In this document: in pieces, positions 322 through 19,024 of the stretch
Position numbering within the stretch: position 1 is the first letter of the stretch
Layout: each line of letters starts with the position of its first letter
IMG/VR virus record: IMGVR_UViG_3300048828_000356
Coordinates: 1-26,635 of that record
DNA from: a virus
Length of the DNA stretch: 26,635 bases
Strand: one strand, 5' to 3'
Notes under the pieces: generated by a model
Databases searched by the model: none
Seen by the model: the letters and a program-made list of their open reading frames with translations, nothing else
What the model was told of the DNA's origin: nothing
Made by a program: the position numbers and the translations under genes

Positions 322-848
322 AAGTTATTACCTTCATCGTTACGTTTTCTTTCAGCGGCATCTGCTTCCAACTTTCTTCTTTTCTCTCTCGTATCAACCT
401 TATCAAAGTTACCGTAATTGTAATTTACTACTTCAATACTTTTAAGTTTTAAAAGGTCAAATGTTCTATATGCTTCCCTCAAATCAGGGTCAGATTTAAT
501 TTCTGATGTATAGAACGCCTTAGAATTCTCATTTATTTGAATCTTTGCTAAATCTAATTTTTTAACTTTAGATGCGGTGGATACTACTTCATCATTTAAT
601 CTTGCCATTTCCAAAATATCAGTTAAAGATAAATTATCCAAAGATAATCCATGTAGTTTAGCTTTTGAATCTGCTACTCTTGGCCATTTAGGTTGTAATA
701 CAAATACCATATACCTTTTTAAATCTCCGTCTTTAGTTTTGTATCTAAACTTAATCATCTGCCCTCTTTCTATCTTACCCCTAAGTACAGGAGTGGCATC
801 TGATGTTTTTCTTAAATGTGAATTGTAATATCCTTTTTTGTTTGCCAT
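312..848 (-). CDS. Conserved-looking phage protein of unknown function
   Basis: A 178-residue protein whose function I do not recognise. The N-terminal half carries a beta-rich segment, GQMIKFRYKTKDG...RYMVFVLQPKWP, then KLHGLSLDNLSL. This resembles a small SH3-like barrel followed by the 'hydrophobic-L-x-P-x-W ... HGL-x-L' pattern I associate with uncharacterised myophage proteins. The middle has FYTSEIKSDPDLREAYRTF. The C-terminus is very basic and acidic (TREKRRKLEADAAERKRNDEG), probably a charged helix. There is no signal peptide or membrane segment. The ATG overlaps the stop of the upstream glycosyltransferase by one base (TAATG), so the two are probably translationally coupled. A structural or assembly role is possible but unproven. 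Confidence 0.75.
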   Translation of the reverse strand: MANKKGYYNSHLRKTSDATPVLRGKIERGQMIKFRYKTKDGDLKRYMVFVLQPKWPRVADSKAKLHGLSLDNLSLTDILEMARLNDEVVSTASKVKKLDLAKIQINENSKAFYTSEIKSDPDLREAYRTFDLLKLKSIEVVNYNYGNFDKVDTREKRRKLEADAAERKRNDEGNNLTN

Positions 849-2176
849 TATTTAACTTTCTTTAATTTAGGTAAATTTATCTTAGGTTCAGTTTTGGATT
901 TCTTTTTTAATTTAGGTAAAGTTAACCCAACTGATACAGGAACTTCATCCGCTCCTTTTAAATAAGTATCTAGCAACTCTTCCATTTTTTCAAATGAGAA
1001 GTTATCTTTTGTATATTGTCTATGTTTTCTAGATTTCTCCAAATAAGGTTTGTAGTTTTTAAACATATCTTTCATAGTTCCACCAGCTACAGAATAATCA
1101 ATTGTAAACCACTTAGAATCCTCTAATAAGAACTTACTTGATGCTGATTTATGTACATTATCCATCGTACCTGTAATACAAGATACATAATCAGGATTTA
1201 AGAAATCCATATGACCACTAAAAGCTGATACTACCATTGGTTTACCACTAATAGTTGCTTCTAATAAAGGTCTACCAAATCCTTCACCTCTCGTAAATGA
1301 AACGTGAGCTTTTACCTTTGGGTGATTATATAATGCGTTTATTTCCCAATCACTTAAATCTGAATGTAATAGATATACATTAGGTAATCTCCCACCTATT
1401 GATTTTTTATAATTAGTGATTAGTGTTCTGATTCTATCTCTATCAGGTAGTGAAGTACCACCACCACTTGTTTTTAAAATCAAAGCAGGTGGATTCTTTT
1501 TATCTTTAAATGCATGTAAGAATGTCCAAACCAATCCACTTACATTTTTTCTATCTTGTTGGAAATCTCCATTTAACCAATGCCCTACAAATAAGAAACA
1601 AAATGATTCTTTAATATCTTTAAGAGCTTTATCAACTCTTTCTTCAGATGGTGCTTTATTATCATATACTTCTAAATCAACACCTTCAAATAAAACTTCA
1701 ATATCAGTTTCTAATTGTAATTTACCAACCAACTTCCCACTATTCTCTTCTTTCTTATCAAATACAGTATTAGTAGAAACTCCTTTTGTAAAGTTAGAAG
1801 ATACCAATACTTTATCCATTCTATTCATACCCTCTAAACATTCAGCAGGCATTACAGTTGTTTCAACACCAGCGGTTACACCAATATTGTATTTACCTAC
1901 AGGATGAAATTCATTTGGAACAGTTATCTGAATCCAAACATCAGGTTTAGGTTCACCCTCTTTTTTTGGAATATATATCTTTTCTAACAAATCATCATCT
2001 TCACCTTGTTTCAATGCATCCATTGGACAATTACCCCATCTTTGAGATAGTATCTTTACTTCCCAATCAGGTCTTACTGACATCAGAGCTCTTACGAAAT
2101 CTCTACTTCTTGAACCATACCCACTCCTCGTAGATATTGGACAACTAATTACACATACTTTTTTTATATTTTCCAT
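848..2176 (-). CDS. GT4-family glycosyltransferase
   Basis: A 442-residue GT-B-fold glycosyltransferase of the GT4 type. The N-terminal Rossmann domain opens with KVCVISCPISTRSGYGSRSRDFVRAL. The C-terminal nucleotide-sugar domain has FLFVGHWLNGDFQQDRKN (about 194-211; R209/K210 fit the phosphate-binding basic pair), LILKTSGGG (232-240), and the E-x7-E signature RGEGFGRPLLEAT with E298 and E306. The last 25 residues are a lysine- and proline-rich tail (LPKLKKKSKTEPKINLPKLKKVK region). The start overlaps the end of the next upstream glycosyltransferase by 13 bases, so both are in one operon. It probably transfers a sugar from a nucleotide donor, but donor and acceptor are unknown. Phage targets could be DNA bases, virion proteins or host surface glycan. 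Confidence 0.88.
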   Translation of the reverse strand: MENIKKVCVISCPISTRSGYGSRSRDFVRALMSVRPDWEVKILSQRWGNCPMDALKQGEDDDLLEKIYIPKKEGEPKPDVWIQITVPNEFHPVGKYNIGVTAGVETTVMPAECLEGMNRMDKVLVSSNFTKGVSTNTVFDKKEENSGKLVGKLQLETDIEVLFEGVDLEVYDNKAPSEERVDKALKDIKESFCFLFVGHWLNGDFQQDRKNVSGLVWTFLHAFKDKKNPPALILKTSGGGTSLPDRDRIRTLITNYKKSIGGRLPNVYLLHSDLSDWEINALYNHPKVKAHVSFTRGEGFGRPLLEATISGKPMVVSAFSGHMDFLNPDYVSCITGTMDNVHKSASSKFLLEDSKWFTIDYSVAGGTMKDMFKNYKPYLEKSRKHRQYTKDNFSFEKMEELLDTYLKGADEVPVSVGLTLPKLKKKSKTEPKINLPKLKKVK

Positions 2177-3564
2177 AACACTATATCTTTTTTAGGTGAA
2201 TAATTTTTTAATGTGGTATCTATTGCTTCAATGAATCTCTCACCCATTAGTTTTGAGGTCATACCAGCTTCTTTTGATTTCATCCACTCTGAACCTTCCA
2301 ATCCACACTCAACTCTTCTATCTTCTTTAGTATCATACCACTGTCTGATTGCTTTAGATACATCTTCATATGAACATCTGTCATCAAAGATGTATGGAGT
2401 TGGTGGTGAACCTTGTAATGAACGGTTAGTTGGCCATACAGGAATCACCCAACTACCCCAACTTAAATTTTGTGGTAACTTCTTTTTATCATGTAACGAA
2501 CCTAACTCAACATATTGGTCGGCAGTGATATACTTACCATCAATAGTAAAATTACATTGGTCTTGTAATCCACCTGTAACATTAACAATGATTGGTGTTC
2601 CTGCATTTACAGATTCACAACTGGCCAATCCGAATCCCTCATTAGATGCAATATTAAGATTAACATCACACATATTATATAATATATTCAAATCATCAGT
2701 ACTAAATGTAGAATGTGTAAATTGTACATCATAGTCAGGACAAATATTTTCAATAACCTGTACCAAATCAGTTCCATTTGAATCTACTGGTTGTGTATGT
2801 AACATCAATAAACAGTTATCTGATTGTTCTTTTGTTAATCCATCACAAAACTCTTTATATGCGAGTATAACATCACCTGGACTTTTTCTTCTGATATTAC
2901 GATTGTTCCATAATGCTATGAAGTCTTTATTCTCTGGAACGTTTAGTTTAGTTCTCATATCTAAGATGGCCTCTTTACCTTCTTTTGTATGTTTGATTGG
3001 TTTGAATTTTTCAGATGTACCATGTGGAATATATTTCATTTGCCAATCTTTATAATCCATACCATATTTTTTCATAACCCTACGATTAATACCGTATGTT
3101 TGTTTTGAGATACTCATAAGTAAATCACAACTTCCATAGAACGGAGCGTTCCACATTGGGTCTGGTAAATCATCCCATATGTTTAGATACATAATTGGAA
3201 CGTGTTTACGGATTTCATCTTCCATATTATACAACCATCCCCAAAAACGTGGGTCTGTAAAATGTAATATGGCATCAACAGGTTCATTAATTAAAATGTT
3301 TCTAATTAATTCAGGATTACCATAACCACTTGATGGTATAATTCTAACAGATGCATCTTCTATTCCTGCTTCTTTTTTTACATCATCAGATACATCGAAG
3401 AACTTCCCCTCATCAGGATGTTTCACCGCCGCTCCAACTTGTAACCAATCGTATTTATGTGCTGTATGGAGTACCATCTCCTTAGACATAGTAGCGATAC
3501 CACTATGTAATCTTAAATCATCTGATAACAGAAGTATAAGAGGTTTCTTCTTTTGTTTACTCAT
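2164..3564 (-). CDS. GT4-family glycosyltransferase
   Basis: A 466-residue GT-B glycosyltransferase. The N-terminal domain starts PLILLLSDDLRLHSGIATMSKEMV, with the glycine-containing acceptor-side loop. The interdomain region has the GT4 hallmark YIPHGTSEKFKPI (about 178-190). The C-terminal domain shows WNNRNIRRKSPGD (219-231, phosphate-binding R/K) and the E-x7-E motif NEGFGLASCES, with E309 and E317. It is of the same family as its downstream neighbour, with which it overlaps by 13 bases, but the two are clearly diverged and not a recent duplication. The leader is GAAATAAGTTATG, an A-rich start without a Shine-Dalgarno site, as elsewhere in this genome. Substrates cannot be inferred. Confidence 0.88.
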   Translation of the reverse strand: MSKQKKKPLILLLSDDLRLHSGIATMSKEMVLHTAHKYDWLQVGAAVKHPDEGKFFDVSDDVKKEAGIEDASVRIIPSSGYGNPELIRNILINEPVDAILHFTDPRFWGWLYNMEDEIRKHVPIMYLNIWDDLPDPMWNAPFYGSCDLLMSISKQTYGINRRVMKKYGMDYKDWQMKYIPHGTSEKFKPIKHTKEGKEAILDMRTKLNVPENKDFIALWNNRNIRRKSPGDVILAYKEFCDGLTKEQSDNCLLMLHTQPVDSNGTDLVQVIENICPDYDVQFTHSTFSTDDLNILYNMCDVNLNIASNEGFGLASCESVNAGTPIIVNVTGGLQDQCNFTIDGKYITADQYVELGSLHDKKKLPQNLSWGSWVIPVWPTNRSLQGSPPTPYIFDDRCSYEDVSKAIRQWYDTKEDRRVECGLEGSEWMKSKEAGMTSKLMGERFIEAIDTTLKNYSPKKDIVLWKI

Positions 3565-3594
3565 AACTTATTTCTTTTGTAATAAATATAATAA

Positions 3595-3990
3595 TTAATT
3601 TATATAATTGACTTTTTTACTAAATCTTTCTAACATCTTTTCAAAGTGTTTTTGTTCTGATGGTTTGATACCACCAAAGTAAAACAATTTATCTGCGTGT
3701 TTCACAACACAATCATACTGATGTAACGTTTGGGTTGGGTGAAATGGTTTAGAATAATATTCATCACTCATACCACTATATAAGTTTCTAACTGTATGAG
3801 CTGGATTGTATTCAGTATATCTAAATCCAAACTCTAATGCATACTTTCTTATATATTTCTCACCACCATTTTTATTACCTCTCGTTATAATATTAACATC
3901 AGTTCCTAATTTTTCTTTTATTGTGTACAGAAACTCTCTTAACTTTCTAACGTTCTCATACTTCGGTGAGCTCAGTATTGCTACGTTCAT
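3595..3990 (-). CDS. SLOG/DprA-like (DUF2493-type) nucleotide-binding protein
   Basis: I place the start at the ATG at 3988-3990, giving 131 residues. The frame stays open upstream to 4125, but that part only shadows the transglycosylase gene. The protein opens MNVAILSSPKYENV (Rossmann-like first strand) and has IITRGNKNGGEKYIRKYALEFGF at about 35-56. This matches the 'R-G-x-x-x-G-G-(D/E)...A...G' pattern of the SLOG superfamily (YspA/DUF2493, related to DprA and lysine-decarboxylase-like proteins). HADKLFYFGGI (98-108) is the later strand. Members are thought to bind or hydrolyse nucleotide-type ligands. The start overlaps the end of the transglycosylase by 35 bases. Family call is moderate; function is unknown. 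Confidence 0.65.
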   Translation of the reverse strand: MNVAILSSPKYENVRKLREFLYTIKEKLGTDVNIITRGNKNGGEKYIRKYALEFGFRYTEYNPAHTVRNLYSGMSDEYYSKPFHPTQTLHQYDCVVKHADKLFYFGGIKPSEQKHFEKMLERFSKKVNYIN

Positions 3991-4489
3991 CTTTTTGTTG
4001 TTTTTTAAGTTGCTTTTGTACCCGTTTCCAATATCTTTTTGTAAGACTTTTCTTAAACCAGTTCGGACCACCATTCCAAGCTCGTGCGATTTCTTCATAT
4101 GTACTATTTTTGTTGTGATATCCATTCACAATGTGAAACATTTCAATTGATTTCTCTCTACTCCATCTATCCTCTAATGTATATTCTAATTCAGATTTCT
4201 GAATCTTTAATATACGATTTACCTCTCTAACCATAATTGGTCTGATTTGTAAACATCCTACCGCTTCCTCTTTTTTACAATAAGCAGAATCATTACCTAC
4301 ACTCTCAACCATAATCATCGCTTGAATCAATGGGTCAACATCTAAGGTATATGTTGGTTTTACGAATGTGGGTTCAACTACTTTCACCTCAATCTTAGTT
4401 GGTTCTATTGGTTCAACTTCGATTAGATGTGGTTGTGTACCACCCAATCCTAACGAAACAGGTAGTAATAATAACATTAACTTTCTCAT
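3956..4489 (-). CDS. Lytic transglycosylase-like (SLT) muramidase, probably exported
   Basis: A 177-residue protein with a hydrophobic N-terminus (MRKLMLLLLPVSLGLGG, residues 1-17) that looks like a signal peptide or membrane anchor. A proline/valine/glutamate-rich linker follows to about residue 50. The SLT domain has the catalytic glutamate in IMVESVGNDSAY (E62), then VGCLQIRP (77-84, the 'GLMQI' position) and ARAWNGGPNW (135-144, the 'AYNAG' position), ending in a basic YWKRVQKQLKKQQK helix. It should cleave the glycan strands of peptidoglycan, for lysis or DNA entry. Its ATG overlaps the stop of the upstream nuclease (ATGA). An export signal on a lysozyme-like phage protein suggests a signal-dependent endolysin, but a host-like periplasmic enzyme is also possible. 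Confidence 0.82.
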   Translation of the reverse strand: MRKLMLLLLPVSLGLGGTQPHLIEVEPIEPTKIEVKVVEPTFVKPTYTLDVDPLIQAMIMVESVGNDSAYCKKEEAVGCLQIRPIMVREVNRILKIQKSELEYTLEDRWSREKSIEMFHIVNGYHNKNSTYEEIARAWNGGPNWFKKSLTKRYWKRVQKQLKKQQKDERSNTELTEV

Positions 4490-5433
4490 ACTTTATGTCT
4501 ATTTTCTTTTGGGCATTTATCGTAATCATTCTTAAACGGACACCATTTACAATTCTTATTGTTCTTACCAGCCATAGCAGGATACTCTGATTCGGTTCTG
4601 TATGAACCATCTTCATTGAATGAGTTTCTAACGAAATCTTCGAAACTCTTAGTAATCTTATTTAAGGTAGGTTTACCACTAGCAGGTTCAAATGTTTGTA
4701 CTCTCTTCTGAGCGAACATCATCCCTTCCATCAACCTACGTTTTACGATAAAGTACTTTGTACTGATTTTATCAATTGGATAACCATATTGTTCTGATAA
4801 AAACTTTTTATATAGAACTAACTGAGCCGTTTTGGTTTTATCCGCCTTCTGCCATTTGTTCCAACCTTGTGTGGATGTTTTGATATCCCAAATCTGTAGT
4901 TTGTTTTCGTATGTATCTTCGAATACTAAATCTAAGAACCCCATCATATATACATTATGTGATTCTAATGCCTTAGAGTATATTGGTAATTCGATAGCCA
5001 CCAATTTCATATGACGGGTATTGAAGTAATCCAAACGATTCTTTGTAACGAAGTTTAAGATATTGATTCCATCTTCTAAGAACTCTTCCATCTGAGATGG
5101 GTTACTGAATTCTACAGATGTTTGGTCTCTCATCTTTTTATACTCAACAACCATACTTTCGTATAACATCTTACCTAAATCTAACTCACCAGCTTCTTTA
5201 GGAGATTTGTTATACAGTACATCTAACCACTCTTGTAGTGTTTCATGCATCGCAGTCCCAAATACAAGATGTATGGATGGGTCGAATGTTCGGAGTCCAT
5301 CCATATAGTTCAACTTCCATTGATGAGGACAGTTGGCATACATTGTATATTGGGAATACGATACTTTTTTATCAGTAGGTTGTGGTTCTCTTACCCCAAG
5401 TCTAAAGACATTATTTATCTTTGTGTCTTTCAT
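4486..5433 (-). CDS. PD-(D/E)XK exonuclease with Cas4/AddB-like 4Fe-4S cysteines
   Basis: A 315-residue RecB/Cas4-type nuclease. The N-terminus has YSQYTMYANCPHQWKLNYMDG with C35, followed by FGTAMHETLQEWL (H63). The catalytic core is GFLDLVFED (D168), then IWDIKTSTQGW (D183 and K185) and QLVLYKKF (Q204 with L-Y), in the order H...D...D-x-K...Q-xx-x-Y. The C-terminus has CKWCPFKNDYDKC (C295, C298, C307). One N-terminal plus three C-terminal cysteines is the Fe-S cluster layout of AddB and Cas4. It probably trims DNA ends in recombination or host DNA degradation. The gene follows its own promoter (5458-5489) and is translationally coupled to the transglycosylase. No cas1 or cas2 gene is nearby, so a CRISPR role is not supported. 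Confidence 0.87.
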   Translation of the reverse strand: MKDTKINNVFRLGVREPQPTDKKVSYSQYTMYANCPHQWKLNYMDGLRTFDPSIHLVFGTAMHETLQEWLDVLYNKSPKEAGELDLGKMLYESMVVEYKKMRDQTSVEFSNPSQMEEFLEDGINILNFVTKNRLDYFNTRHMKLVAIELPIYSKALESHNVYMMGFLDLVFEDTYENKLQIWDIKTSTQGWNKWQKADKTKTAQLVLYKKFLSEQYGYPIDKISTKYFIVKRRLMEGMMFAQKRVQTFEPASGKPTLNKITKSFEDFVRNSFNEDGSYRTESEYPAMAGKNNKNCKWCPFKNDYDKCPKENRHKV

Positions 5434-5508: not shown

Positions 5509-5811
5509 TTAAGTTTTTGGAGTATATAAATTATACTTTAAGGTTAACTCATCACCTTCTTTGATGTCTACTAAAGTTCTAATGTGGTAGTTACCACTTT
5601 TCTGTACATCTATTTGTAAGTTAGGAGTTTCACTATGGTTGATAAAACCACCTAATGGTGTTCTAATGAATCCATTTTCTGATGCAATATCAATAATATG
5701 TGTTAATCCTAAATCTGTATCAGATTTAATATCTTCTACTGCGAATAAACCCAATCCTTCAATCCCAGATTGTTTGATTGTTACTTCCTTTGGAAGTGGT
5801 CTATAAGTCAT
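5509..5811 (-). CDS. SET-domain protein (putative protein lysine methyltransferase)
   Basis: I choose the ATG at 5809-5811 (100 residues). The frame is open further upstream, but that stretch overlaps the end of the neighbouring gene and has no SET character. Visible SET motifs are GIEGLGLFAVEDIKSDTDLG (17-35, the G-x-G S-adenosylmethionine turn), GGFINHSETPNLQ (54-66, the N-H-S-x-x-P-N pseudoknot motif) and EGDELTLKYNLY (85-96, with the conserved G-(D/E)-E-L and tyrosine). It is a minimal SET domain without pre- or post-SET cysteines. It should methylate lysine in a protein, but the target is unknown; candidates are ribosomal or nucleoid proteins of the host or the phage's own histone-like protein (7239-7409). 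It starts five bases after the Nmad1-like gene. Confidence 0.85.
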   Translation of the reverse strand: MTYRPLPKEVTIKQSGIEGLGLFAVEDIKSDTDLGLTHIIDIASENGFIRTPLGGFINHSETPNLQIDVQKSGNYHIRTLVDIKEGDELTLKYNLYTPKT

Positions 5812-5815
5812 ACGA

Positions 5816-6226
5816 CTACTTCGCCCATTTTTTACGTTGTACAATCTGAGAGATAATTCCATATACTGATAAATCTTCATAAGTATCTTGAATGTTCTCA
5901 CCAACCTCATCTGGTTGTCCTAATACAACTAATTGTTTTAATCTCTGAATCTTATCATTCTTTCTGAACCATAACCCAACTAAAGATAATTTTATATCTT
6001 CATCAGATTCTAAATTAGTTCCAACTGAGATATTACCTGGTCCGTAATTCCTTTGTTTCTTACAAAAGGTTACATACATCTCATCTAATATCTTTTTGAA
6101 CTCCTTTGTAGTTTCAGGATATAATCGTTCACAATATTGAATTGCGTTTTCTTTCTTATCTTCCTTAATAGTTCTTTCTCCATTGTGAACTACTTTTGTT
6201 TTTGCCTCTCTTAGTATTTCTGCCAT
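5816..6226 (-). CDS. DUF1599 / Nmad1-like protein (nucleotide-modification associated)
   Basis: A 136-residue protein. The key segment is FCKKQRNYGPGNISVGTNLESDEDIKLSLVGLWFRKNDKIQRLKQLV (about 54-99), then QPDEVGENIQDTYEDLSVYGIISQIV. The YGPGNIS, R-x-N/K-DK-x-x-RL and D-T-x-x-D-L-x-x-Y-x-x-I elements match the DUF1599 family as I know it. Comparative genomics has linked that family to base-modification pathways (Nmad1). It is mostly helical and acidic in these motifs, reminiscent of MazG-type all-alpha nucleotide pyrophosphatases, so it may bind or hydrolyse a (modified) nucleotide. It lies directly upstream of the SET gene and 25 bases after the small acidic protein. Family call is fairly firm from motifs; biochemical role is inference. 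Confidence 0.75.
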   Translation of the reverse strand: MAEILREAKTKVVHNGERTIKEDKKENAIQYCERLYPETTKEFKKILDEMYVTFCKKQRNYGPGNISVGTNLESDEDIKLSLVGLWFRKNDKIQRLKQLVVLGQPDEVGENIQDTYEDLSVYGIISQIVQRKKWAK

Positions 6227-8365: not shown

Positions 8366-9997
8366 TTATTTTTTATGAAATACAAATATTGGTTCAAATT
8401 TGTATGATTTACCATCATACTCTACTGCATTTTTAATTCCACTCTTAGATGGGTCTAATCCAACCATTCGTGTCATTAACATTTTCAATCTACCTTTATA
8501 CTCACATCCTAATTCTTCTAAGATATCAATTGAATCTTGTTCCAATGGATAGTAAGTACTTTCACCTATTTTGATATCAGCAATATTCCATAGAATATAT
8601 CTATCATTCTTTAGATACTCATATATTGTAGTTAGAGTTGGTTTAAGAAAATTATCTCTCCAATCCTCATACTCTCCATATGCTCTAAATGATTGTTTTT
8701 CATCTTGTGAATACTGTTCTCTATTAAAGTAAGGTGGTGATGTAAATGATATATCTAACTTACCCTTATACTTTTGAAACTCAGGATTGTTTTGAATCAA
8801 CTCAGAACCATCTTGGAATATTTCAAATGTATTTGATTGTGATTTAACATCAAAAAATGATGTAAGTTTATCTGAGAAGTCATCAACACAATTTTTGTTG
8901 TAGAAGTTTGCAACATACTCATATCTTGTGATACCTAACTCATCAATGAAATTATCAGGATTAGGGTCTGTACCGATATAGTGTGTTTTCTTTCTACTAC
9001 TCATTGCTCCTATGATTCTACCACCCCAACCTGCAGATGAATCGTAAATATGTAACGGTTCATCGGTATCGATATGTGATGTGTAGTTTTCATAAATCCA
9101 CTTCGCAGTTAATGCTGGGAAGTTTACCGCAGGTTGTCCACAACTTAGTCTGAATACTTGGATAATCTTTGGAAATATTCCTACTTCCTTTTCATACCAA
9201 CGTATCTGATAAACATAATCTGTAGTTGTTCCCGCTTCGGATGTATGTGATGATTCGATTCTATCAATATTAGATAACTGAGTTTTGTTTAGATAACCAT
9301 CATCTTTTAATTTCTGAACCTGTTCAGATGTAAGGTATAAGTTCTTTGAACCTATGTATTCTTGATTAAACGTACCATAGTTATCAATAGTACGTGTCTT
9401 AACTTTTGAAATCCAAATATCAAAACCTTTCCACCTTCCATTGAACACTTTACCATTATGAGCATCTTTAATGAAATCAATAGCACCCTGTCCATTCCAA
9501 AAAGAATTTTCATCTTTCTTATCAACTATTGAACGAGACCAAGAATACATTGAATCTCTCTTAACCGCTCGTTTCATAATTCTAACAAACTTTTCTTCTA
9601 AATCTGGTTCTGAGAAGTGGTCATATATAGATAACCCACCATCTGCAGATTTACCTGTAGAAATCTTAGTTTTCAACATTGTTGGAAAGAATTGATTTAC
9701 TACCGAAGCATCTTTGTTAAAATTCTTAATAATACCTAATGATAAATCATCCCCACTTAAATCCTTTTCCCAATAATCAGCGGGATTAGATTTAAGTTTT
9801 TTAAACTTTGTAATAATACCATCCTCATTCCTACCAATCACAGGTGGTGTTCCAAATACATCCCACTGCTCAGTAACTTCTTTTCGTAAAGTTCTGGCCC
9901 AATCAGTAAACTCATCATCAGTCATTTGTAGTAACTGATGATAAGTTGTGTTTGATTGAAATTTGGAAAATTGTGACCGTTCGTAAAAATGATTCAT
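8366..9997 (-). CDS. SPPY-type DNA/nucleic-acid amino-methyltransferase 1
   Basis: A 543-residue Rossmann methyltransferase. Motif I is IYDSSAGWGGRIIGA (317-331), followed by YIGTDPNPDNF (340-350). Motif IV is FTSPPYFNREQYS (418-430), and ILWNIADIKI (468-477) follows. S-P-P-Y is the catalytic signature of enzymes methylating exocyclic amino groups (N6-adenine or N4-cytosine), and motif I precedes it. The first ~280 residues have no recognisable motif and may recognise the target. The same core (D-x-SAGWG-x-R; FTSPPYF-x-x-E-x-YS-x-D-x-x-QS; W-x-x-x-FL-x-x-TL-x-x-I; NIAD) recurs in the gene at 14543-15772, so they are paralogues. It lies between gp45 and gp44 with gaps of two and three bases, interrupting the replisome operon. 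No restriction partner is seen. Confidence 0.87.
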   Translation of the reverse strand: MNHFYERSQFSKFQSNTTYHQLLQMTDDEFTDWARTLRKEVTEQWDVFGTPPVIGRNEDGIITKFKKLKSNPADYWEKDLSGDDLSLGIIKNFNKDASVVNQFFPTMLKTKISTGKSADGGLSIYDHFSEPDLEEKFVRIMKRAVKRDSMYSWSRSIVDKKDENSFWNGQGAIDFIKDAHNGKVFNGRWKGFDIWISKVKTRTIDNYGTFNQEYIGSKNLYLTSEQVQKLKDDGYLNKTQLSNIDRIESSHTSEAGTTTDYVYQIRWYEKEVGIFPKIIQVFRLSCGQPAVNFPALTAKWIYENYTSHIDTDEPLHIYDSSAGWGGRIIGAMSSRKKTHYIGTDPNPDNFIDELGITRYEYVANFYNKNCVDDFSDKLTSFFDVKSQSNTFEIFQDGSELIQNNPEFQKYKGKLDISFTSPPYFNREQYSQDEKQSFRAYGEYEDWRDNFLKPTLTTIYEYLKNDRYILWNIADIKIGESTYYPLEQDSIDILEELGCEYKGRLKMLMTRMVGLDPSKSGIKNAVEYDGKSYKFEPIFVFHKK

Positions 9998-10785: not shown

Positions 10786-13300
10786 AAAATCCAAAAAATT
10801 GTGATGCCTTTTTTAAATTAGGAGATGGCTTCTCCCATTTCATTGCTAAGTAGAAATCATCTAATTTGTTTTCTAACTCTTTTTGCCAGATTAACTCATA
10901 ATCTATATACTCTTTTACTAAATCTAAAATCTCAGGTGGGTCGTTGTAACCAGTCATTCCAACTGAATCTAATCCTAACGGATTATTCTTTAGATATACC
11001 CACTTAATCTTATCACCATCTTTCATCGGTTCATATTTGTAAGGTACTTTATAGTAATTAAGTAATTGATTGTATGTTAAGGCGGCCTTTACGTGAGCTG
11101 GTGTACCCTTTTGAAATTCACCAATTGCCTGTTTCTTAAAGGTGTATTTACTCATACCCTTAACTGCTGAATTCTTTGCGATATCAATGAAGTTTCGTTT
11201 AGTCATCTCATCTCTCTTAGTTAAGATATACTCATCTATATTAGTTTTATCCTCATCTTTAAGAATATCCATTAGTACGTTTTCCATCACTTCCTTAAAG
11301 TATGTTGGGAATGAACTACGTTTAACATCAAGTCCTTTCACATCTAACTTGTCACAAGGTACTGTGTTATCGTTGATAATCCATTGCGCGTATCTTTTCT
11401 TTGATACCCAAAACCCACCTTTGGCAATAGTTTCTTGTTTGATATCAAATCTATGTGAATGGATATTAAACATTTTTAATGCCATAGCATCATACACCTT
11501 ATTGATATGTCCCTCAACCTCTTTAGCAACTGATAGAATTGCTGGAATCATTTGTTCATCTGAGTTTACATCAATGTTAGGATTCCTTGCCTTTACCAAT
11601 GGAGTTGCTTCATAGAATACAGAATCAGTATCAACATAGATGTTGTAATCTTTTTCTTCTCCAATGTTTTTACTATAGTATTGATTAGCAATCTTCTCAG
11701 TTGTTTTAATTACGGTTTGACCTGTAAGTGTTACTGCCTCAGCATTATCAATATCATAGAATCTGAATGATGGTAATCCCAATACTCCGTAAAGGGAATT
11801 CAACATAATCTTTTGTACCAACTGTCTTTGAGCAAAAAACTTATACTTCTCATCATTACCAGCTTTACCAAACTTCTTCATTTGGTCTTTATACTCTACC
11901 CTCTTATCAAACCATACATTAAGAATCTCAGGTATGATACCAACCTTATCCGTTCTATAAAGTACACCGTTAGAAGCTACTGATAGTTTCTGCTGGTCTA
12001 TAAAACTCATAAAGTTTTCTTTTGGTATTGGGTTGGATTCATTACCCTCATTATCTATGATTGAATAACTTTCTAACTCACCTTTCATATGAGATTCAGC
12101 GGAATATCCTTTTACCTTACCCATCTTAGTTTCAGGTGAGATATTGATACTCATAATGATTGATGGATATAGTGATGTTAAATCTAAATCATAAACCCAT
12201 TTGTAAAGACCTGGTTTTGGTTGTTTTACATATGCTCCGATGAATTTATCTTCACCATCAGAACCATCATTATTCCTCAACGCACGTCGTGGTTTATTAG
12301 GAGCTACCCTACCATTCCTTCTTAGGAATGTTAATATCGCACCCTCTAACCATTTCGATGAGAATAAGAAATCCTCATAGAAAACGTGTCCTGCGTGACA
12401 GATTGCTCTGGCCAAATCGATGAACTGTAGTTTCTTATCCATATCCACTACCAACTCAACATCAACTAAGTTATACTCACAAAACTTTTCAATATCATCT
12501 CTGAATAATTGGTCTAAGTTTCCATCATACTCAATCTTACCTCTACTCAACTCTTTTTGTGCCACCGTATCTAAACGATAATTAGGAAGTTGTGTATATG
12601 TAAAGTTCTTATAAAGTGCGATGTAATCTAATGCGGATACACCTGCGATGATATATCTCTTACGATATTTGTTCCAATGAACTTTACCGATTGGTGATAA
12701 TCTATTTGCTTGTTTAGTACCTAATACTCTTTTCAATCTGTTGTAAAGATAAGTAACATCAAAGAAATCAATATTCCACCCAGTGATAATAGTTGGTGAA
12801 ATCTCTTCCCAAGCATTTACAAAAGCGATTAACATATCCTCTTCGGTTCTGAATGAACGAACCTTAGCTCCTTTGATAGTTTTGTTTATTTCTTCTCCAT
12901 CACTAATTACATATACGTGATAATCGTTAGTCGCTGAATCGTGGAATGCTACAGATGTCATAGTATTCTTTGCCTCATCTGTATCAGGTAAACCACTATT
13001 CATTTCCACCTCAATATCAAATGTTAAGGTAACGTGTCCTACTGATACTTCATCAGAATCACCATACTCATCTATAAGGAATCTAGTAACCTCATTTACA
13101 TCTGATTCATAAAGTGTGAGATTATCTTCTTTATTCCAAAAGTTAATCTTCTTTAACCTCTCACCGTATATAGATTCATGTGAACCATTTCCATCTCTGT
13201 AATATGCGTAGTTTCTGTACTTCTTTGTAAAGTAACCTTTCATATCATCCCAACAATGGATGATTCCTTCATTCTTCTCGTAATATAAATTTTGATACAT
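10784..13300 (-). CDS. 43: Family B DNA polymerase, gp43-like
   Basis: An 838-residue replicative polymerase, slightly shorter than T4 gp43 (898). The proofreading domain has Exo I FDIEVE (D95, E97), Exo II GWNIDFFDV (N176, D178) and Exo III YNLVDVELV (Y276, D280). The polymerase domain has motif A DLDLTSLYPSI (371-381), motif B around QKIMLNSLYGVLG (496-508) and motif C YVDTDSVF (555-562; D557 and D559). All catalytic carboxylates are present. The extreme C-terminus ends NLKKASQFFGF, which looks like the clamp-binding peptide of this family (hydrophobic FF near the end). It follows its own promoter (13324-13355) with a 23-base distance to the -7 box, and no regA gene lies beside it. Role: genome replication. 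Confidence 0.97.
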   Translation of the reverse strand: MYQNLYYEKNEGIIHCWDDMKGYFTKKYRNYAYYRDGNGSHESIYGERLKKINFWNKEDNLTLYESDVNEVTRFLIDEYGDSDEVSVGHVTLTFDIEVEMNSGLPDTDEAKNTMTSVAFHDSATNDYHVYVISDGEEINKTIKGAKVRSFRTEEDMLIAFVNAWEEISPTIITGWNIDFFDVTYLYNRLKRVLGTKQANRLSPIGKVHWNKYRKRYIIAGVSALDYIALYKNFTYTQLPNYRLDTVAQKELSRGKIEYDGNLDQLFRDDIEKFCEYNLVDVELVVDMDKKLQFIDLARAICHAGHVFYEDFLFSSKWLEGAILTFLRRNGRVAPNKPRRALRNNDGSDGEDKFIGAYVKQPKPGLYKWVYDLDLTSLYPSIIMSINISPETKMGKVKGYSAESHMKGELESYSIIDNEGNESNPIPKENFMSFIDQQKLSVASNGVLYRTDKVGIIPEILNVWFDKRVEYKDQMKKFGKAGNDEKYKFFAQRQLVQKIMLNSLYGVLGLPSFRFYDIDNAEAVTLTGQTVIKTTEKIANQYYSKNIGEEKDYNIYVDTDSVFYEATPLVKARNPNIDVNSDEQMIPAILSVAKEVEGHINKVYDAMALKMFNIHSHRFDIKQETIAKGGFWVSKKRYAQWIINDNTVPCDKLDVKGLDVKRSSFPTYFKEVMENVLMDILKDEDKTNIDEYILTKRDEMTKRNFIDIAKNSAVKGMSKYTFKKQAIGEFQKGTPAHVKAALTYNQLLNYYKVPYKYEPMKDGDKIKWVYLKNNPLGLDSVGMTGYNDPPEILDLVKEYIDYELIWQKELENKLDDFYLAMKWEKPSPNLKKASQFFGF

Positions 13301-13357: not shown

Positions 13358-14536
13358 TTATAGTAATGCATCTAAATGTTTTTGTTCACATTCTATATCC
13401 ATAATAATGTGGAATCTGTAGTTATCAGATTTGTTCTCTACCCAATGTGGTTTTCGTTTATCCATATAATAATAGTTACCAGTCTTCAATCTATGGTCGA
13501 TTTCCTCACCATCCAATTTAAGTTGAGTAAATACACAATCATCATCTACCTGAATTGGATAATGAATTCTTAAAGATTGTCCTACTTTTGGGCCATTCTT
13601 AGTTTTATACCCCCAACTATCGTTACCTCTATCAGTATGCCTCATAATTAATCCATTCTTAGGTTCTACTCTCGTTATAACCAACCACGTACATTTACCT
13701 ACTTCAGTAATTGTATCAACAACCTTTTTTAGTTTAGGTAAACTTTCTAATATTTTCCAATCAGTTTCAGATTCAGGTCTAATAGGAACTATCTCAATAG
13801 TGTACCAAGTCTTTTCAGGACCACCATAATTTCCATTAATACCATCGTATGACCAAGGGTTTATTGCATCTTGATAACTCTTTACCTCTTCCACCAACTC
13901 AGCACATTCAGATTGAGTCAATGATTGAAAATTCATTTTCTTAATAGTAATATCTTCGTATTCGGAAACACCAGGTTGATATTTACTACCAATGTAGTAT
14001 ATCCCCCTAACTTCAGAACCAACTGCAGTAATCTTAGAGGATAACCACTTCGCACCCATCTTCTCCATTACTAACTTATCTGATGGTAATTCCATATTAA
14101 TTTCTGTAAACCAAATATCAATTGGGTCTACATCTATAAATTTGTTATATGAATCTGTACGATGTGTATAGATGTGTTCAATCATATCATCCAAGTATTC
14201 TGTTTGATATGCAAATCTGGTTATCTGTAAATCACCCATTTGGATAGTTCCAACGATATCATCTGCAAAATCTTTTATACCTCTTTTACCTTTTGATTTC
14301 TTCATAAAATAGGCCCATAACAAATTCCCATCATTATCTTTTTTAGTGTAGTATTCACCATTTTCATTAGAATCAAATATGTTCTTCCAATTAACTTTTT
14401 TGAAAGGGTCTAAGTTCTTTTCTTTAGTTGCGATTGGTTGATTCTGATGTTGTGTTGGTACATCATAATTTTGAAAGAAGTTTGCTTCAATCTTTAACTG
14501 TTCTTTTATTGTGTCTTTTATATCTGCCGTTTTCAT
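13358..14536 (-). CDS. 2-oxoglutarate/Fe(II) oxygenase, aspartyl/asparaginyl hydroxylase-like
   Basis: A 392-residue protein whose C-terminal part (about 240-385) is a double-stranded beta-helix dioxygenase. The iron-binding facial triad is MRHTDRG (H300, D302) and KPHWVEN (H364). SDNYRFHIIMDIE (370-382) carries R374, the likely 2-oxoglutarate salt-bridge residue. VGQSLRIHYPIQVDDDCVF and LKTGNYYYMD are typical of the aspartyl/asparaginyl beta-hydroxylase branch. The N-terminal ~235 residues are an additional region; WFTEINMELPSDKLVMEKMGAKWL with GIYYIG weakly recalls an acetyltransferase (GNAT) strand-helix-strand, but this is uncertain. The substrate could be a protein side chain, a base or a small molecule. 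It starts six bases after methyltransferase 2 and is probably cotranscribed with it. Confidence 0.82.
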   Translation of the reverse strand: MKTADIKDTIKEQLKIEANFFQNYDVPTQHQNQPIATKEKNLDPFKKVNWKNIFDSNENGEYYTKKDNDGNLLWAYFMKKSKGKRGIKDFADDIVGTIQMGDLQITRFAYQTEYLDDMIEHIYTHRTDSYNKFIDVDPIDIWFTEINMELPSDKLVMEKMGAKWLSSKITAVGSEVRGIYYIGSKYQPGVSEYEDITIKKMNFQSLTQSECAELVEEVKSYQDAINPWSYDGINGNYGGPEKTWYTIEIVPIRPESETDWKILESLPKLKKVVDTITEVGKCTWLVITRVEPKNGLIMRHTDRGNDSWGYKTKNGPKVGQSLRIHYPIQVDDDCVFTQLKLDGEEIDHRLKTGNYYYMDKRKPHWVENKSDNYRFHIIMDIECEQKHLDALL

Positions 14537-14542
14537 ATTATT

Positions 14543-15772
14543 TTATTTTTTCCAAATCCACACAGGTTCACAAAATGTTTTACCTACGTTTTCATCGTGT
14601 TTTCTCAATTCTTCTTCTGTATATCTGTGTCTATCTTCTTCGATAACCAAACCAGCTCCTACAGAACCAGGTCTTTTGGCCATTTCCATACCTAAACAAC
14701 CTTCGTAAGTACCACCCAACGATTTAATAAAATCATTCATTGGATTTGTGATTTCTAAGTACTTTCGTTCACCACCCGATGAACCATATACATCTGCAAT
14801 GTTTATCGCCATATAACCACCTTTTTTGATTGATGGCCATATTCTTTCTAATGTTGCGTGTAAGAAGTTCTTATTCCATTCATCGATTGTTTTATATCTA
14901 ATCCAACTTTGAGTATCATCATATGAATATCTTTCTACTGAGAAATACGGTGGTGATGTGAATACCATATCAAAATGATTCTCATATGGAGTAAAATCAA
15001 AATCCTCAGCAGGTGTACAATGGAACTCCCACTTTTTATCTTCTTCAAAGAATCCTAAATGTTTGTTATAGAACTCACCTTGCATTTGATATAATGGATG
15101 ATTCTCTTTACGTGGGTCTAACCCAACATAATGTTTAGTGTTTGATGCACCCATAAATCCAGCGAATCTATCACCCCAACCTGCACTAAAATCTAATACG
15201 TTCTCAGAACCCATCATCTCATAGAATACCTTCGCAACATTTGGTTTGAATGCTGAACATATATACTTTCTTAAACTTAAACAAACTCTTAGTTCGTTTC
15301 TTGTTACCTTTGGGAACTTTAGAGAATATAACCCACCCATAAGTGTTACCATAAACTTTCTCGTTTCCCAAGTTCTCTTTGGACCAGGTGATACCGTTCC
15401 ATCTACACCCCAACGGTTTTCTTGTTGAAAGTAGTTTGATGCATTGTTACCTGTATTCAATCTACGGATGTATTGTGGTTTACCTCTAAAGGTTAATGAA
15501 TACGTTGATTCACTTGCCTTTCTCTGAAACCACTCATCTTCTCTAAGTAATTCATTCCACCTAATACCTTTAAGTTTCATAAAATCTTTGTATGCATCCA
15601 ACTCAGATAATTCTGCAGTTGGTAGTTCGTAATCCATAAGGATATCAGCTAAACATTCCTTTACTTCATCCTTCGGAAATGTTTCTTTGATATAAGTCCA
15701 TTGTTCTTCGTTGATTGCGAAGTATGGCTCCATATCTTTAAATTGTTCAAAATACTGTTTAATTTCACTCAT
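14543..15772 (-). CDS. SPPY-type DNA/nucleic-acid amino-methyltransferase 2
   Basis: A 409-residue paralogue of the methyltransferase at 8366-9997. Motif I is NVLDFSAGWGDRFAGF (191-206), then YVGLDPRKEN (215-224), motif IV FTSPPYFSVERYS (271-283) and AINIADVYG (322-330). Shared features between the copies are D-x-SAGWG-x-R, the DP after the second strand, FTSPPYF-x-x-E-x-YS, the D-x-x-QS-x-x-x-Y linker and NIAD. It has a shorter N-terminal region, with a possible target-recognition part at about 60-170 (RGKPQYIRRLNTGNNASNYF region). The enzyme should methylate an exocyclic amino group. It has a near-leaderless promoter (15778-15809). No restriction endonuclease is adjacent, so protection or signalling is more likely than restriction. 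Confidence 0.87.
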   Translation of the reverse strand: MSEIKQYFEQFKDMEPYFAINEEQWTYIKETFPKDEVKECLADILMDYELPTAELSELDAYKDFMKLKGIRWNELLREDEWFQRKASESTYSLTFRGKPQYIRRLNTGNNASNYFQQENRWGVDGTVSPGPKRTWETRKFMVTLMGGLYSLKFPKVTRNELRVCLSLRKYICSAFKPNVAKVFYEMMGSENVLDFSAGWGDRFAGFMGASNTKHYVGLDPRKENHPLYQMQGEFYNKHLGFFEEDKKWEFHCTPAEDFDFTPYENHFDMVFTSPPYFSVERYSYDDTQSWIRYKTIDEWNKNFLHATLERIWPSIKKGGYMAINIADVYGSSGGERKYLEITNPMNDFIKSLGGTYEGCLGMEMAKRPGSVGAGLVIEEDRHRYTEEELRKHDENVGKTFCEPVWIWKK

Positions 15773-15777
15773 AACGT

Positions 15778-15809
15778 CTAATATACAAAATTATTTTTAA
15801 TTATACAAA
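15778..15809 (-). promoter_or_regulatory. Bacteroidota-type promoter before methyltransferase 2
   Basis: On the minus strand: TTTG (15806-15809), 20 bases, TATATTAG (15778-15785), with TTTTG before the -7 box. The -33 box lies inside the last codons of the PLP enzyme. Only five bases separate the -7 box from the ATG (15770-15772), so the transcript would begin at, or one to two bases before, the start codon if the usual spacing holds. Confidence 0.72.
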
Positions 15810-16633
15810 TATTTTCCACCTATATTCCAAAAGAGAATATCACCATCTATTTGCTCTATATTGTTTTCTAACCAATGCCATTGTTTTATATCCCAAAACT
15901 GATTACATGGAAATGGTGTTTCATACCAATCCATTCTATCATCAAAATCGTATTCTGATTTACGAATATCAATTGGTAATTGTCCTAATCCGTTTTTAAT
16001 TAACATTTTACTAATAGAACTATTTGATGATACACAAGTTGTATAAATCTTTCTATCGGTGTTTGGCCAAAATTCTTTTAATTCTTCCTCAAAAAAACCT
16101 TTTGCTAATCCTGAAAGTGATACACCACTTCCACTTGAAACTATCAGATTTTTAAAATGTTTATATGGTTGAATTCTATTTTTTAGATAATCTTTATAAA
16201 AATTATGGTCAAATGCATATGGTAACATCTGCCACCCCTCTTCTCTTGCTTGTTTTTTAAGAGCATTATACATAATGGCCATCATATTAGGTCGTATGGG
16301 GTTAAACTTACAGTTAGGGTAATTCTCTTTAACCTCACTTAGTAATTGTTTTGATATTTTTTTAGAATCTGGATGTGAATAATGAAATTCTATACCCAAA
16401 TCTTCACATACGGCAGCAAGTGTCCACCCACTCCAACTTCCATCTACTGATAAGTGGGTTAGTGGTTTAGATTTATCAACGTATTTATCTACCAATTCGT
16501 AAATAGCGGCCATTTTACCCCAAGGTGGTAAATTAGTACCATCACCCATAAGGTCATCTCTCTTTACCCAAACACTTCTACCCTTTATAGTATATTCTTC
16601 TAACGGTGTATCTTTATTTAACCCTAAAACCAT
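15797..16633 (-). CDS. Fold-type-II PLP-dependent enzyme (ACC deaminase / D-cysteine desulfhydrase-like)
   Basis: A 278-residue, compact member of the TrpB/ACC-deaminase superfamily (usual length about 330). VWVKRDDLMGDGTNLPPWGKM (21-41) matches the 'lwvKREDL...GGNK' entry, with K40 as the likely PLP Schiff-base lysine. LSVDGSWSGWTLAAVCEDLG (61-80) corresponds to the 'GGxQSNHT' substrate loop, although the S-N is replaced by S-G. VSSGSGVSLSGLAKGF (165-180) is the phosphate loop. ILFWNIGGKYLYN at the end corresponds to the 'hTGG' terminus. The substrate is unknown; deamination, elimination or beta-replacement of an amino acid is possible. The start overlaps the dehydrogenase by 10 bases, so the three metabolic genes 19024-15797 are one operon. 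Confidence 0.8.
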   Translation of the reverse strand: MVLGLNKDTPLEEYTIKGRSVWVKRDDLMGDGTNLPPWGKMAAIYELVDKYVDKSKPLTHLSVDGSWSGWTLAAVCEDLGIEFHYSHPDSKKISKQLLSEVKENYPNCKFNPIRPNMMAIMYNALKKQAREEGWQMLPYAFDHNFYKDYLKNRIQPYKHFKNLIVSSGSGVSLSGLAKGFFEEELKEFWPNTDRKIYTTCVSSNSSISKMLIKNGLGQLPIDIRKSEYDFDDRMDWYETPFPCNQFWDIKQWHWLENNIEQIDGDILFWNIGGKYLYN

Positions 16634-17478
16634 AAATTATCTAATCTTTTTAAATGTGGGTCTTTAACATTATTATCTAAACAATTATCTATAATCTTTT
16701 TAAGATTATCTGCGAACTCCACATTAACATAACCACCTAACTTACCTTTAGAATCTTTGGGTTGATTATACTCCCACGATGTATGTTCATAGTATCTTAT
16801 ATTTTTTTGTGATACTAATGTACTTCGTATATCTGATGATAACATATCAAAATGTCCTACCTTTAGTTTACCTGATGATGAAAACTCTAACAACCCACCA
16901 TTATCAATCACATCACCTCTGGCGATAGATATAATAGTTACTTCATTCTGAATCTTAGAAAATAAAGTTCTATTAAAGTAATTTTTAGTATTTTTATTAA
17001 GAGGCATTGTAATAACAATAGTTTTACAGAACTTTAAATATCTATCAATCTCTTTTTGTTCTGTTTTACTATTCACTACATTGAAATTACCAATTCTACT
17101 TTGAACTTCTTTTGAAATAGAACCATTCCCAAATATTAGAATTGCATCATCATCTGTAATCTTATTACAAATCCATTCACCACAAGGTTTAGCGGTTGGT
17201 GCTGTTGCAACTACACCCACATTTCGTTTTCTACATTCTTCGATATTAACTGTATCAACACCATGTGCTCTACAGACTACCCATTCTAAGTTTTTATATC
17301 TATCTAATGTTACTTTACCTACTTTACTGAATTTTGTAGATATTAACTTTATGTTATCTACATTTTCAGTATCAACCTTACCATAAGCACCTAATACATT
17401 AGCTGATGGAAATCGTTCTAATACGACTGGTGTTATGTCCGATTTGTCTTTTAATATAATGTTTTGGTATTTCCCCAT
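16624..17478 (-). CDS. D-isomer 2-hydroxyacid dehydrogenase-like oxidoreductase
   Basis: A 284-residue NAD(P)-dependent dehydrogenase of the D-2-hydroxyacid family, a little shorter than usual (310-330). NLEWVVCRAHGVDTVNI (63-79) is the family 'GvDnid' segment. DAILIFGNGSISKEVQSRIG (111-130) is the Rossmann loop, with G-N-G replacing G-x-G. TIVITMPLNKNTKNYF (153-168) and TIISIARGDVIDNGGLLEF (181-199) include the catalytic arginine R187. YYEHTSWEY (229-237) has the catalytic histidine H232. The usual 'EP' acid after 'DV' is not obvious (FDMLSSD, 210-216), so activity may be altered. No other internal ATG exists near the start, so the 80-base overlap with the end of asnB appears genuine. The substrate is unknown. 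Confidence 0.8.
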   Translation of the reverse strand: MGKYQNIILKDKSDITPVVLERFPSANVLGAYGKVDTENVDNIKLISTKFSKVGKVTLDRYKNLEWVVCRAHGVDTVNIEECRKRNVGVVATAPTAKPCGEWICNKITDDDAILIFGNGSISKEVQSRIGNFNVVNSKTEQKEIDRYLKFCKTIVITMPLNKNTKNYFNRTLFSKIQNEVTIISIARGDVIDNGGLLEFSSSGKLKVGHFDMLSSDIRSTLVSQKNIRYYEHTSWEYNQPKDSKGKLGGYVNVEFADNLKKIIDNCLDNNVKDPHLKRLDNLWF

Positions 17479-19024
17479 TTACAAATAATTTTTCAAATAT
17501 TGATTCTAACTTTTCTTTTTCTTTTTTGAGATAATCAGTATGTGCTCCAACTTGGAATGTTTTTTTCTTTCTCCATAGTAACTCATCTGAAATCTCACCT
17601 TCAAATGCCTTTCTAAGCACATACTTCATAATTTTACCACTACCACCATTTTCATCTCTATACTTAGTTGGTATTCGTAATCCGAAATCAATCAACTTTT
17701 TGTTTAAAAATGGTGTTCTTAGTTCTACCTTACCACCATACATCATTGCTTTGTTGGTTCTAATAAGGTTTGTTTTATGTAGATTATTTAATAAATTAAC
17801 TCTACGCTTATGATAATCTAATGGAACTGGCCAACAGAATCTAAACACATCACCATATGATGCAAATATCTCATCTGAACCCTCTCCACCGAATACTACC
17901 TTATAACCTTTATCTCTAACTTCCCAAGATAAAAATAGTTGAGCTACTGATGGAGATATCTGAGTCCACTTGTGTGTTTCAGATGCCCATATGGATTCTT
18001 CTAAATAATTTTCAACATCAGATTTTGTTATGTTAACTTCATGTAGTTTAATTCCGAACTCTTTTGATGCGATTCGGGCATAGTGTAAATCATCTTTTCT
18101 TTTTAGATTCTTTTCACTTTGTACATTAACAACAAAAGATTCTATATTTGGTATTTTTTTAGAAAGTAGATATGTAATTACAGTAGAATCAATACCACCA
18201 CTTAGTATAGTACATACAGGTACATCAGCTATTAATTCATCATCAACTGCTTCTTCTAAATACTTTCTAAATTGTTTTGCATAATAATCAATTCCCATAT
18301 CCTCACCCTCAAATTCCACTAACTGTTCATCGGTTGTTGGATAATATTCAGGAGTTTTAAAAGAGAAATACTGTGTTTTGTTTAATATCCCCAATTTATT
18401 ATATGTTATGAATGTACCAGGTTCTACTATATTTATGACTTCTTTATTTTTAAAATCAGAATTAAATTTAGAACCTTTATCTATATTATAATATGGTAAA
18501 TTCAATGAAGTGGTTAATCCCTTTATCTCAGATGAGAAAGCAATGTACTGACCATCGAAGTAGTAGTACAATGGTAATCTACCAATAAAATCTCTACCTA
18601 AAGTTAGATTGTCTTCTTCTTTATCATAAAATGCAAATGAAAACATTCCTTCGATTTCATTCAACATCTCTGTGAGATTATCTTTGTATTCTATTAAAAA
18701 ATATAATAATAATTCTGAATCAGAACTATCTGTTTTGAATTCATACTTCTCTCTTAGAGATTTATCAAATTTTTCAAATGTAGATTTCCACAACTCACCA
18801 TTAAATGCCAGATAATATCTACCATCCGATGATATCAATGGTTGGTTTGCGGATTCTGATAAATCTTGGATTGATAATCTGTTATGGGTCATATACATAT
18901 ACCCATCATTTGTTTTAAATTCAAAAATAGTATTACCATCCGTTCCTCTATGAAACATAGATGTTAATCCATTTTCTACTTCGCCAATATCTCCAAAGAT
19001 ATTACCACCTAATATACCACACAT
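17399..19024 (-). CDS. asnB: Asparagine synthetase B-type glutamine amidotransferase
   Basis: A 541-residue two-domain enzyme. The glutaminase domain starts with Met-Cys (C2, the nucleophile) and has FHRGTDG (24-30), HNRLSIQDLSESANQP (47-62), FNGE (74-77) and RDFIGRLPLYYY (144-155). The synthetase domain has the PP-loop LSGGIDS (274-280), GGEGSDE (379-385), VELRTPFLNKKLIDF (433-447) and RKKKTFQVG (485-493). All expected motifs are present, so it should make asparagine from aspartate, glutamine and ATP, or amidate another acid. The start must be at 19022-19024, since C2 has to follow Met. A nearby out-of-frame ATG sits four bases upstream. Promoter 19043-19074 drives it. Phage-encoded amidotransferases can also modify other substrates, so the exact reaction is open. 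Confidence 0.9.
   Translation of the reverse strand: MCGILGGNIFGDIGEVENGLTSMFHRGTDGNTIFEFKTNDGYMYMTHNRLSIQDLSESANQPLISSDGRYYLAFNGELWKSTFEKFDKSLREKYEFKTDSSDSELLLYFLIEYKDNLTEMLNEIEGMFSFAFYDKEEDNLTLGRDFIGRLPLYYYFDGQYIAFSSEIKGLTTSLNLPYYNIDKGSKFNSDFKNKEVINIVEPGTFITYNKLGILNKTQYFSFKTPEYYPTTDEQLVEFEGEDMGIDYYAKQFRKYLEEAVDDELIADVPVCTILSGGIDSTVITYLLSKKIPNIESFVVNVQSEKNLKRKDDLHYARIASKEFGIKLHEVNITKSDVENYLEESIWASETHKWTQISPSVAQLFLSWEVRDKGYKVVFGGEGSDEIFASYGDVFRFCWPVPLDYHKRRVNLLNNLHKTNLIRTNKAMMYGGKVELRTPFLNKKLIDFGLRIPTKYRDENGGSGKIMKYVLRKAFEGEISDELLWRKKKTFQVGAHTDYLKKEKEKLESIFEKLFVNGEIPKHYIKRQIGHNTSRIRTISIS

Follow-up and report, generated by a model that had tools for sequence, protein, structure and literature searches.

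A recurring phage cassette combining an M6-related pyridoxal phosphate enzyme and an AsnB-type ligase as a candidate DNA base hypermodification pathway

What might an amidotransferase, a dehydrogenase, a pyridoxal phosphate (PLP) enzyme, a methyltransferase and an oxygenase do together when their genes follow one another among the replication genes of a virus? We analyzed such a five-gene run in the IMG/VR virus record IMGVR_UViG_3300048828_000356, a T4-like phage fragment taken here over its whole length of 26,635 bases (the window), where it lies in a replication neighborhood with nrdAB, thioredoxin and polymerase genes. The five genes are best explained as a horizontally exchanged phage cassette, which is common among uncultivated T4-like phages, and the best reading of its content is a new combination of known phage base-hypermodification enzymes. 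On balance we favor an undescribed pathway for hypermodification of a DNA base, probably cytosine; a literature search returned no description of this enzyme combination. Hypermodified bases, which enlarge the known range of DNA chemistry, allow phages to defeat restriction and other nuclease defenses. The genes, with a second methyltransferase as a possible outlying member, are as follows:

17399..19024, minus strand: AsnB-type ligase with a glutamine amidotransferase domain (AsnB; P0001, 541 aa; PF00733/PF13537)
16624..17478, minus strand: D-2-hydroxyacid-dehydrogenase-like protein (DHG; P0002, 284 aa; PF02826/PF00389)
15797..16633, minus strand: fold-type-II PLP enzyme, relative of M6 gp52 (PLP; P0003, 278 aa; phrog_7093)
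14543..15772, minus strand: SPPY amino-methyltransferase-like protein (MT1; P0004, 409 aa; DFSAGWGDR and TSPPYF motifs)
13358..14536, minus strand: 2-oxoglutarate (2OG)-Fe(II) oxygenase of the Asp/Arg hydroxylase family (OG; P0005, 392 aa; PF05118)
8366..9997, minus strand: second SPPY methyltransferase, possible outlying cassette member (MT2; P0006; phrog_12517, phrog_498)

All five open reading frames (ORFs) of the run are on the minus strand and start with ATG. The run is bounded by a thioredoxin gene on one side (52 bp from AsnB) and by the gp43 DNA polymerase gene on the other (57 bp from OG), with spacings of 24 bp between PLP and MT1 and 6 bp between MT1 and OG, and with overlaps of 80 bases between AsnB and DHG and 10 bases between DHG and PLP. 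Gene order, coordinates and overlaps are as given in an earlier note on this DNA, which had been made from the sequence alone. Five DHG residues located within the 80-base overlap (K10, D11, K12, D14 and V19) are invariant among relatives, and we therefore consider this overlap to be coding.

The earlier note had proposed that the five genes make up one pathway and had suggested looking for the same set in other phages. Relatives were gathered from IMG/VR by searches with PLP, with ThyL (a protein of sister cassettes, described below) and with the DHG profile. Of the viral loci retrieved, 76 contained PLP (some contigs being counted twice), and in each of them PLP adjoined the preceding cassette gene, which it overlapped except in two loci with a 1 bp spacing. 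Common gene orders were ThyL-AsnB2-PLP with MT1 before or after (the ThyL-AsnB2-PLP order being found in about 38 loci), ThyL-c15-PLP-MT1, AsnB-DHG-PLP(-MT1) and AsnB-DHG-OG-PLP-MT2, where AsnB2 is the AsnB partner of ThyL and c15 a shorter ligase. The last of these orders is that of records L093-L099, in which the cassette lies outside the replication block, and three records (L102, L098 and L101) carry DHG-OG-PLP together with SPPY methyltransferases and a gene for an HD-domain protein. An OG homologue, 37-72% identical to the window OG, is placed between DHG and PLP in L093-L102, and OG was detected in 6 of the 23 records searched, all six of the DHG type. Since OG lies inside the operon elsewhere and, among the records searched, is confined to those of the DHG type, we conclude that the five genes belong together, with OG as an optional member. 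The recurrence of the set in unrelated settings supports the proposal of a single pathway.

DHG matched PF02826 (2.5e-13) and PF00389 (4.9e-7), both above the curated cut-offs against which Pfam matches were judged, and resembles phosphoglycerate dehydrogenase and glyoxylate reductase. Among aligned relatives, R187 and H232 are invariant and the Glu is missing at the usual catalytic position. No DHG relative was found among 50,697 phage records, and TAL-effector matches of the DHG profile were discarded as a repeat artefact arising from one short motif. In sister phages, the place of DHG is taken by ThyL, a thymidylate synthase (TS) family protein (PF00303) of 232 aa. DHG and ThyL were never found together in one record: the ThyL profile had no match in 13 DHG-type records (longest 202 kb), and the DHG profile had no match in 8 ThyL-type records (longest 289 kb), with three controls matching. 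A tree of the PLP enzyme requires at least four switches between DHG and ThyL, a minimum that holds when well-supported branches alone are counted: L087 (DHG) is nested in a clade of the ThyL type, and the ThyL-bearing L006, L038 and L041 are placed beside L003 (DHG). This distribution points to DHG and ThyL being functionally equivalent or alternative suppliers of the same intermediate, and predicts that two unrelated enzymes reach that intermediate. A keto- or aldehyde-acid precursor may be the product of DHG in cassettes of the window type.

The best solved relative of ThyL is the CMP 5-hydroxymethylase MilA (1.8e-7), ahead of thymidylate synthases, and ThyL residues Cys151, Ser172, Asp182 and His212 are invariant in all 15 sequences. 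When the two are aligned with HMMER, ThyL Asp182 coincides with MilA Asp186, at the position that corresponds to TS 177 and holds the cytosine signature. MilA Asp186 is conserved in cytosine-using enzymes (PMC5175136), and an Asn177-to-Asp change turns TS toward dCMP, Asp at this position indicating cytosine specificity (PMC8670742). The same alignment shows Arg (Ala in two sequences) at the position of TS Asp169 and Gly or Arg at that of TS Tyr209; as both positions are changed, ThyL may use a donor other than methylene-folate. In three genomes (G015, G016 and G017) ThyL coexists with a separate full ThyA (1e-90 to 1e-95), so that ThyL is not the thymidylate synthase of the phage. A PRA-PH gene is located just upstream of ThyL in five loci (L004, L006, L007, L009 and L011), and this TS family/PRA-PH pairing occurs in cytosine-modified contigs (PMC8670742). 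We excluded as evidence an in-frame ThyL-AsnB2 fusion of 710 aa in L079 (6001-8133), which has neither the AsnB N-terminus nor Cys2 and could result from a deletion or an assembly error. Compared with the dCMP/CMP 5-hydroxymethylases T4 gp42 and MilA, the ThyL of the sister cassettes shares the nucleophile Cys, the cytosine-specific Asp and the His but differs at the two TS positions 169 and 209, and the window type is devoid of ThyL. A TS family gene adjoining PRA-PH in phages with modified cytosine is also a feature of the 5-hydroxymethylcytosine carbamoyltransferase systems that MetaGPA uncovered (PMC8670742), whereas the cassette has an amide ligase and a PLP enzyme and no carbamoyltransferase.

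AsnB matched PF00733 (1.5e-53) and the glutamine amidotransferase family PF13537 (1.6e-27), both above cut-off, and its glutaminase set is complete, with Cys2, R49, N75, G76, E77 and D102 invariant. Its score of 283.6 against the asparagine synthase model TIGR01536 also exceeds the cut-off of 267.1, as might be expected if the genes supplied amino acids or one-carbon units for replication. AsnB would then produce asparagine, DHG would act like phosphoglycerate dehydrogenase, which it resembles, and the PLP enzyme would resemble a serine/threonine dehydratase or D-cysteine desulfhydrase, the latter being its nearest fold. However, the segment aligned to ETYDVTTIRAS of E. coli AsnB reads ETHKWTQISPS in the window AsnB and EYPSTVQMEVG in AsnB2. 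The E. coli positions T322, T323 and R325, which we take to be aspartate-site residues, are occupied by T, Q and S in the window AsnB family, and T323 and R325 are lost in AsnB2 too. Moreover, in 6 loci AsnB is replaced by c15, a stand-alone synthetase domain of 308 aa without glutaminase. The earlier note had ranked simple amino-acid metabolism as an equal alternative; the loss of the aspartate-site motif and the swap of AsnB for a glutaminase-less ligase lead us to regard it as less likely than that. Supply genes are also not expected to alternate with ThyL, nor does the missing catalytic Glu of DHG fit, and we judge this explanation quite improbable.

Phage relatives of the c15 ligase include CmoY of Synechococcus phage S-B43 (2e-5). 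CmoY ligates glycine to 5-carboxymethylcytosine in phage DNA, yielding 5-glycylcarboxymethylcytosine, and a second cluster of CmoY-type ligases carries a glutaminase domain, for which ammonia use has been proposed (PMC12783734). Judging from its sequence, the window AsnB fits this glutaminase-bearing cluster. The cassette thus shares with the CmoA-CmoX-CmoY system of S-B43 an asparagine-synthetase-type ATP-dependent amide ligase (predicted for the cassette) in forms with and without a glutaminase domain, and a ParB-like partner (in L109 for the cassette). In contrast to that system, the cassette methyltransferases are of the SPPY type and not of the SPPC C5 type with Arg350 (cassette genes only), and the cassette adds PLP, DHG/ThyL and OG.

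The PLP enzyme had no Pfam match and matched phrog_7093 at 9.5e-25 and phage M6 gp52 at 2e-8 (tblastn). Its relatives among annotated phages are limited to the M6/YuA group and Bordetella phages (24-29% identical), and a search of 84,980 genomes of bacteria and archaea with two degenerate patterns returned none. The Schiff-base residue Lys40 is invariant in 50 sequences. Structure modeling, which the earlier note had also advised, yielded an AlphaFold2 model (pLDDT 93.7) with the type II fold, whose nearest structures are those of D-cysteine desulfhydrase (Z 23.5, root-mean-square deviation 2.7, 264 aligned residues) and 1-aminocyclopropane-1-carboxylate deaminase. A domain structurally much like it is also found in an 810-aa viral protein (BFVD A0A1P8VV91; Foldseek 8.8e-13). 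In Pseudomonas phage M6, the PLP gene, whose product is assigned a decarboxylase role, adjoins genes for the amino acid:DNA transferase ADDT, a radical S-adenosylmethionine (SAM) enzyme, the 5-hydroxymethyldeoxyuridine (5-hmdU) DNA kinase HMUDK and a hydroxymethylase (hmdU synthase). The M6-like hypermodification cassette has been described as including a PLP enzyme (PMC9476957). Our cassette resembles the M6 thymidine hypermodification system in having a PLP enzyme homologous to gp52, in sharing its genome with a pyrimidine hydroxymethylase of the TS family and in lying among replication genes. They differ in that neither an AsnB-type ligase nor DHG or OG is annotated in the M6 block, and in that the ThyL of the sister cassettes bears the cytosine signature, not that of uracil.

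MT1 gave a weak match to PF01555 (1.5e-4, below cut-off) and a PADLOC match to MTase_II (1.7e-8). It carries the DFSAGWGDR and TSPPYF motifs, with the core invariant in 31 homologues, and its model has a generic SAM-methyltransferase fold. An MT2 homologue lies directly 3' of PLP in L093-L097 and ahead of ThyL in L109. OG matched PF05118 (6.9e-7, above cut-off), and its H300, D302 and H364 (HxD...H) and 2OG-binding R374 are invariant. The assignment of OG to the Asp/Arg hydroxylase family, the presence of a SET-domain gene at 5509-5910 of the window and the CmoA/CmoB-type chemistry known on tRNA (PMC12783734) would also suit the same chemistry acting on RNA or protein, such as the wobble base of a tRNA or a ribosomal or virion protein. 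We rate this as the least probable of the explanations considered: the SPPY methyltransferases match DNA methyltransferase families, the relatives of ThyL use pyrimidine nucleotides, and the neighbors are nrdAB, thioredoxin and polymerase genes, with nuclease genes in some relatives. In L005 the slot after PLP (10916-12491) holds a type II restriction enzyme and a Dam-like methyltransferase, and in L061 (7293-8783) the slot beside the cassette holds a GmrSD/HNH protein; we counted these adjoining restriction-type nucleases toward DNA modification. Several other large proteins fill the same variable slot in relatives, and variable genes between PLP and MT1 were taken as nucleases only given a profile match, as in L005 and L061, most having no Pfam or PADLOC match.

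Modification of nucleic acid, which the earlier note had held worth testing, is favored by the M6-family PLP enzyme, by the exchange of DHG for the cytidylate-hydroxymethylase-like ThyL and by the CmoY-like ligase variant. The cassette would bring together, in a short operon, elements of two known systems: a PLP enzyme related to that of M6 and an amide ligase resembling CmoY. Beyond the observed gene linkage, families, active-site residues and gene exchanges, we infer a substrate, a step order, a product and functions for DHG and OG as follows. A handle bearing a carboxylate or an amino acid would be put on the base or nucleotide by ThyL in the sister cassettes; in cassettes of the window type an equivalent step or a precursor would come from DHG, in some cases with OG. 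AsnB would then activate the carboxylate with ATP and convert it to an amide using glutamine-derived ammonia, analogous to CmoY with glycine. The PLP enzyme would remodel the amino-acid-like side chain, OG, where present, would hydroxylate it, and the SPPY enzyme would act on DNA. A more specific version, in which a novel class of hypermodified cytosine carries an AsnB-amidated carboxylate or amino-acid handle made either by a TS-fold enzyme with a non-folate donor or by a DHG (plus oxygenase) route, we put forward only tentatively. The cassette would work like known phage hypermodification systems, and we do not assign it to the M6 type or to the CmoA-CmoX-CmoY type.

Several results weigh against hypermodification. 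No handle-installing enzyme was found in the window type, ThyL being absent from DHG-type records of up to 202 kb. Neither HMUDK (PF18723) nor ADDT (PF18724), both part of the M6 system, was found in 8 cassette records including a 169-kb relative, and the Cx-SAM synthase CmoA (TIGR00740) of the S-B43 system was not found in 14 records of up to 289 kb, all of these records being possible fragments. The PLP enzyme is just 29% identical to M6 gp52, across 74% of its length. Finally, in L093-L099 the cassette directly follows genes for a UDP-glucose dehydrogenase, a cytidylyltransferase and an NDP-sugar epimerase, located just upstream of AsnB (tested on L097). Linkage to surface-glycan genes had been named in the earlier note as a counter-test, and was encountered in this one lineage and not in the other lineages examined. 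It fits a role in surface- or virion-glycan synthesis, with AsnB amidating a uronic acid, DHG and PLP making an amino-acid or sugar substituent and the whole being linked to phage glycosyltransferases. Glycosyltransferase-like ORFs are seen, by reading, at 848-3564 of the window, and AsnB-like amidotransferases occur in O-antigen clusters. On the other hand, L098, L101 and the thioredoxin-gp43 loci showed no sugar genes next to the cassette, the sole match among the tested flanks of L102 was a pyrimidine-dimer glycosylase, and glycan synthesis explains neither why the SPPY methyltransferase is constant nor why DHG gives way to a protein resembling cytidylate hydroxymethylase. We therefore regard it as unlikely, albeit the strongest competitor to DNA base hypermodification. 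An Nmad1-like gene near the cassette (5816-6226), cited in the earlier note in favor of modification, gave a weak PF07659 match (E 0.0011, below cut-off). It is overlapped by the gene for the SET-domain protein mentioned above (PF00856, 4.5e-10), which is unusual for a T4-like replication block.

Other genes were noted around cassettes of relatives. In L109 (5345-10975), a contig binned as Ignavibacteria, genes for an SPPY methyltransferase, ThyL, a ligase resembling c15 and a radical SAM enzyme follow one another downstream of a ParB-like gene, forming a possible bacterial or integrated modification island, which we also counted toward DNA modification. Genes for the S-adenosylmethionine synthetase MetK are located near the cassette in two loci (L001:4737-5789 and L012:7459-8601), and a SAM-lyase-like gene is found in the cassette neighborhood of L068 (9613-10242). 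L005, a T4-like viral contig, encodes a TonB-dependent-receptor-like protein of the SusC type (1959-4742), as would fit either a host among the Bacteroidota or a contig that is chimeric. The 169-kb relative carries a methylglyoxal-synthase-like gene followed by a truncated ThyA with a 72-aa open frame, possibly interrupted or decayed (G004:C1:119719-120305; L022:19719-20000, L023:1-305), and also encodes GroEL.

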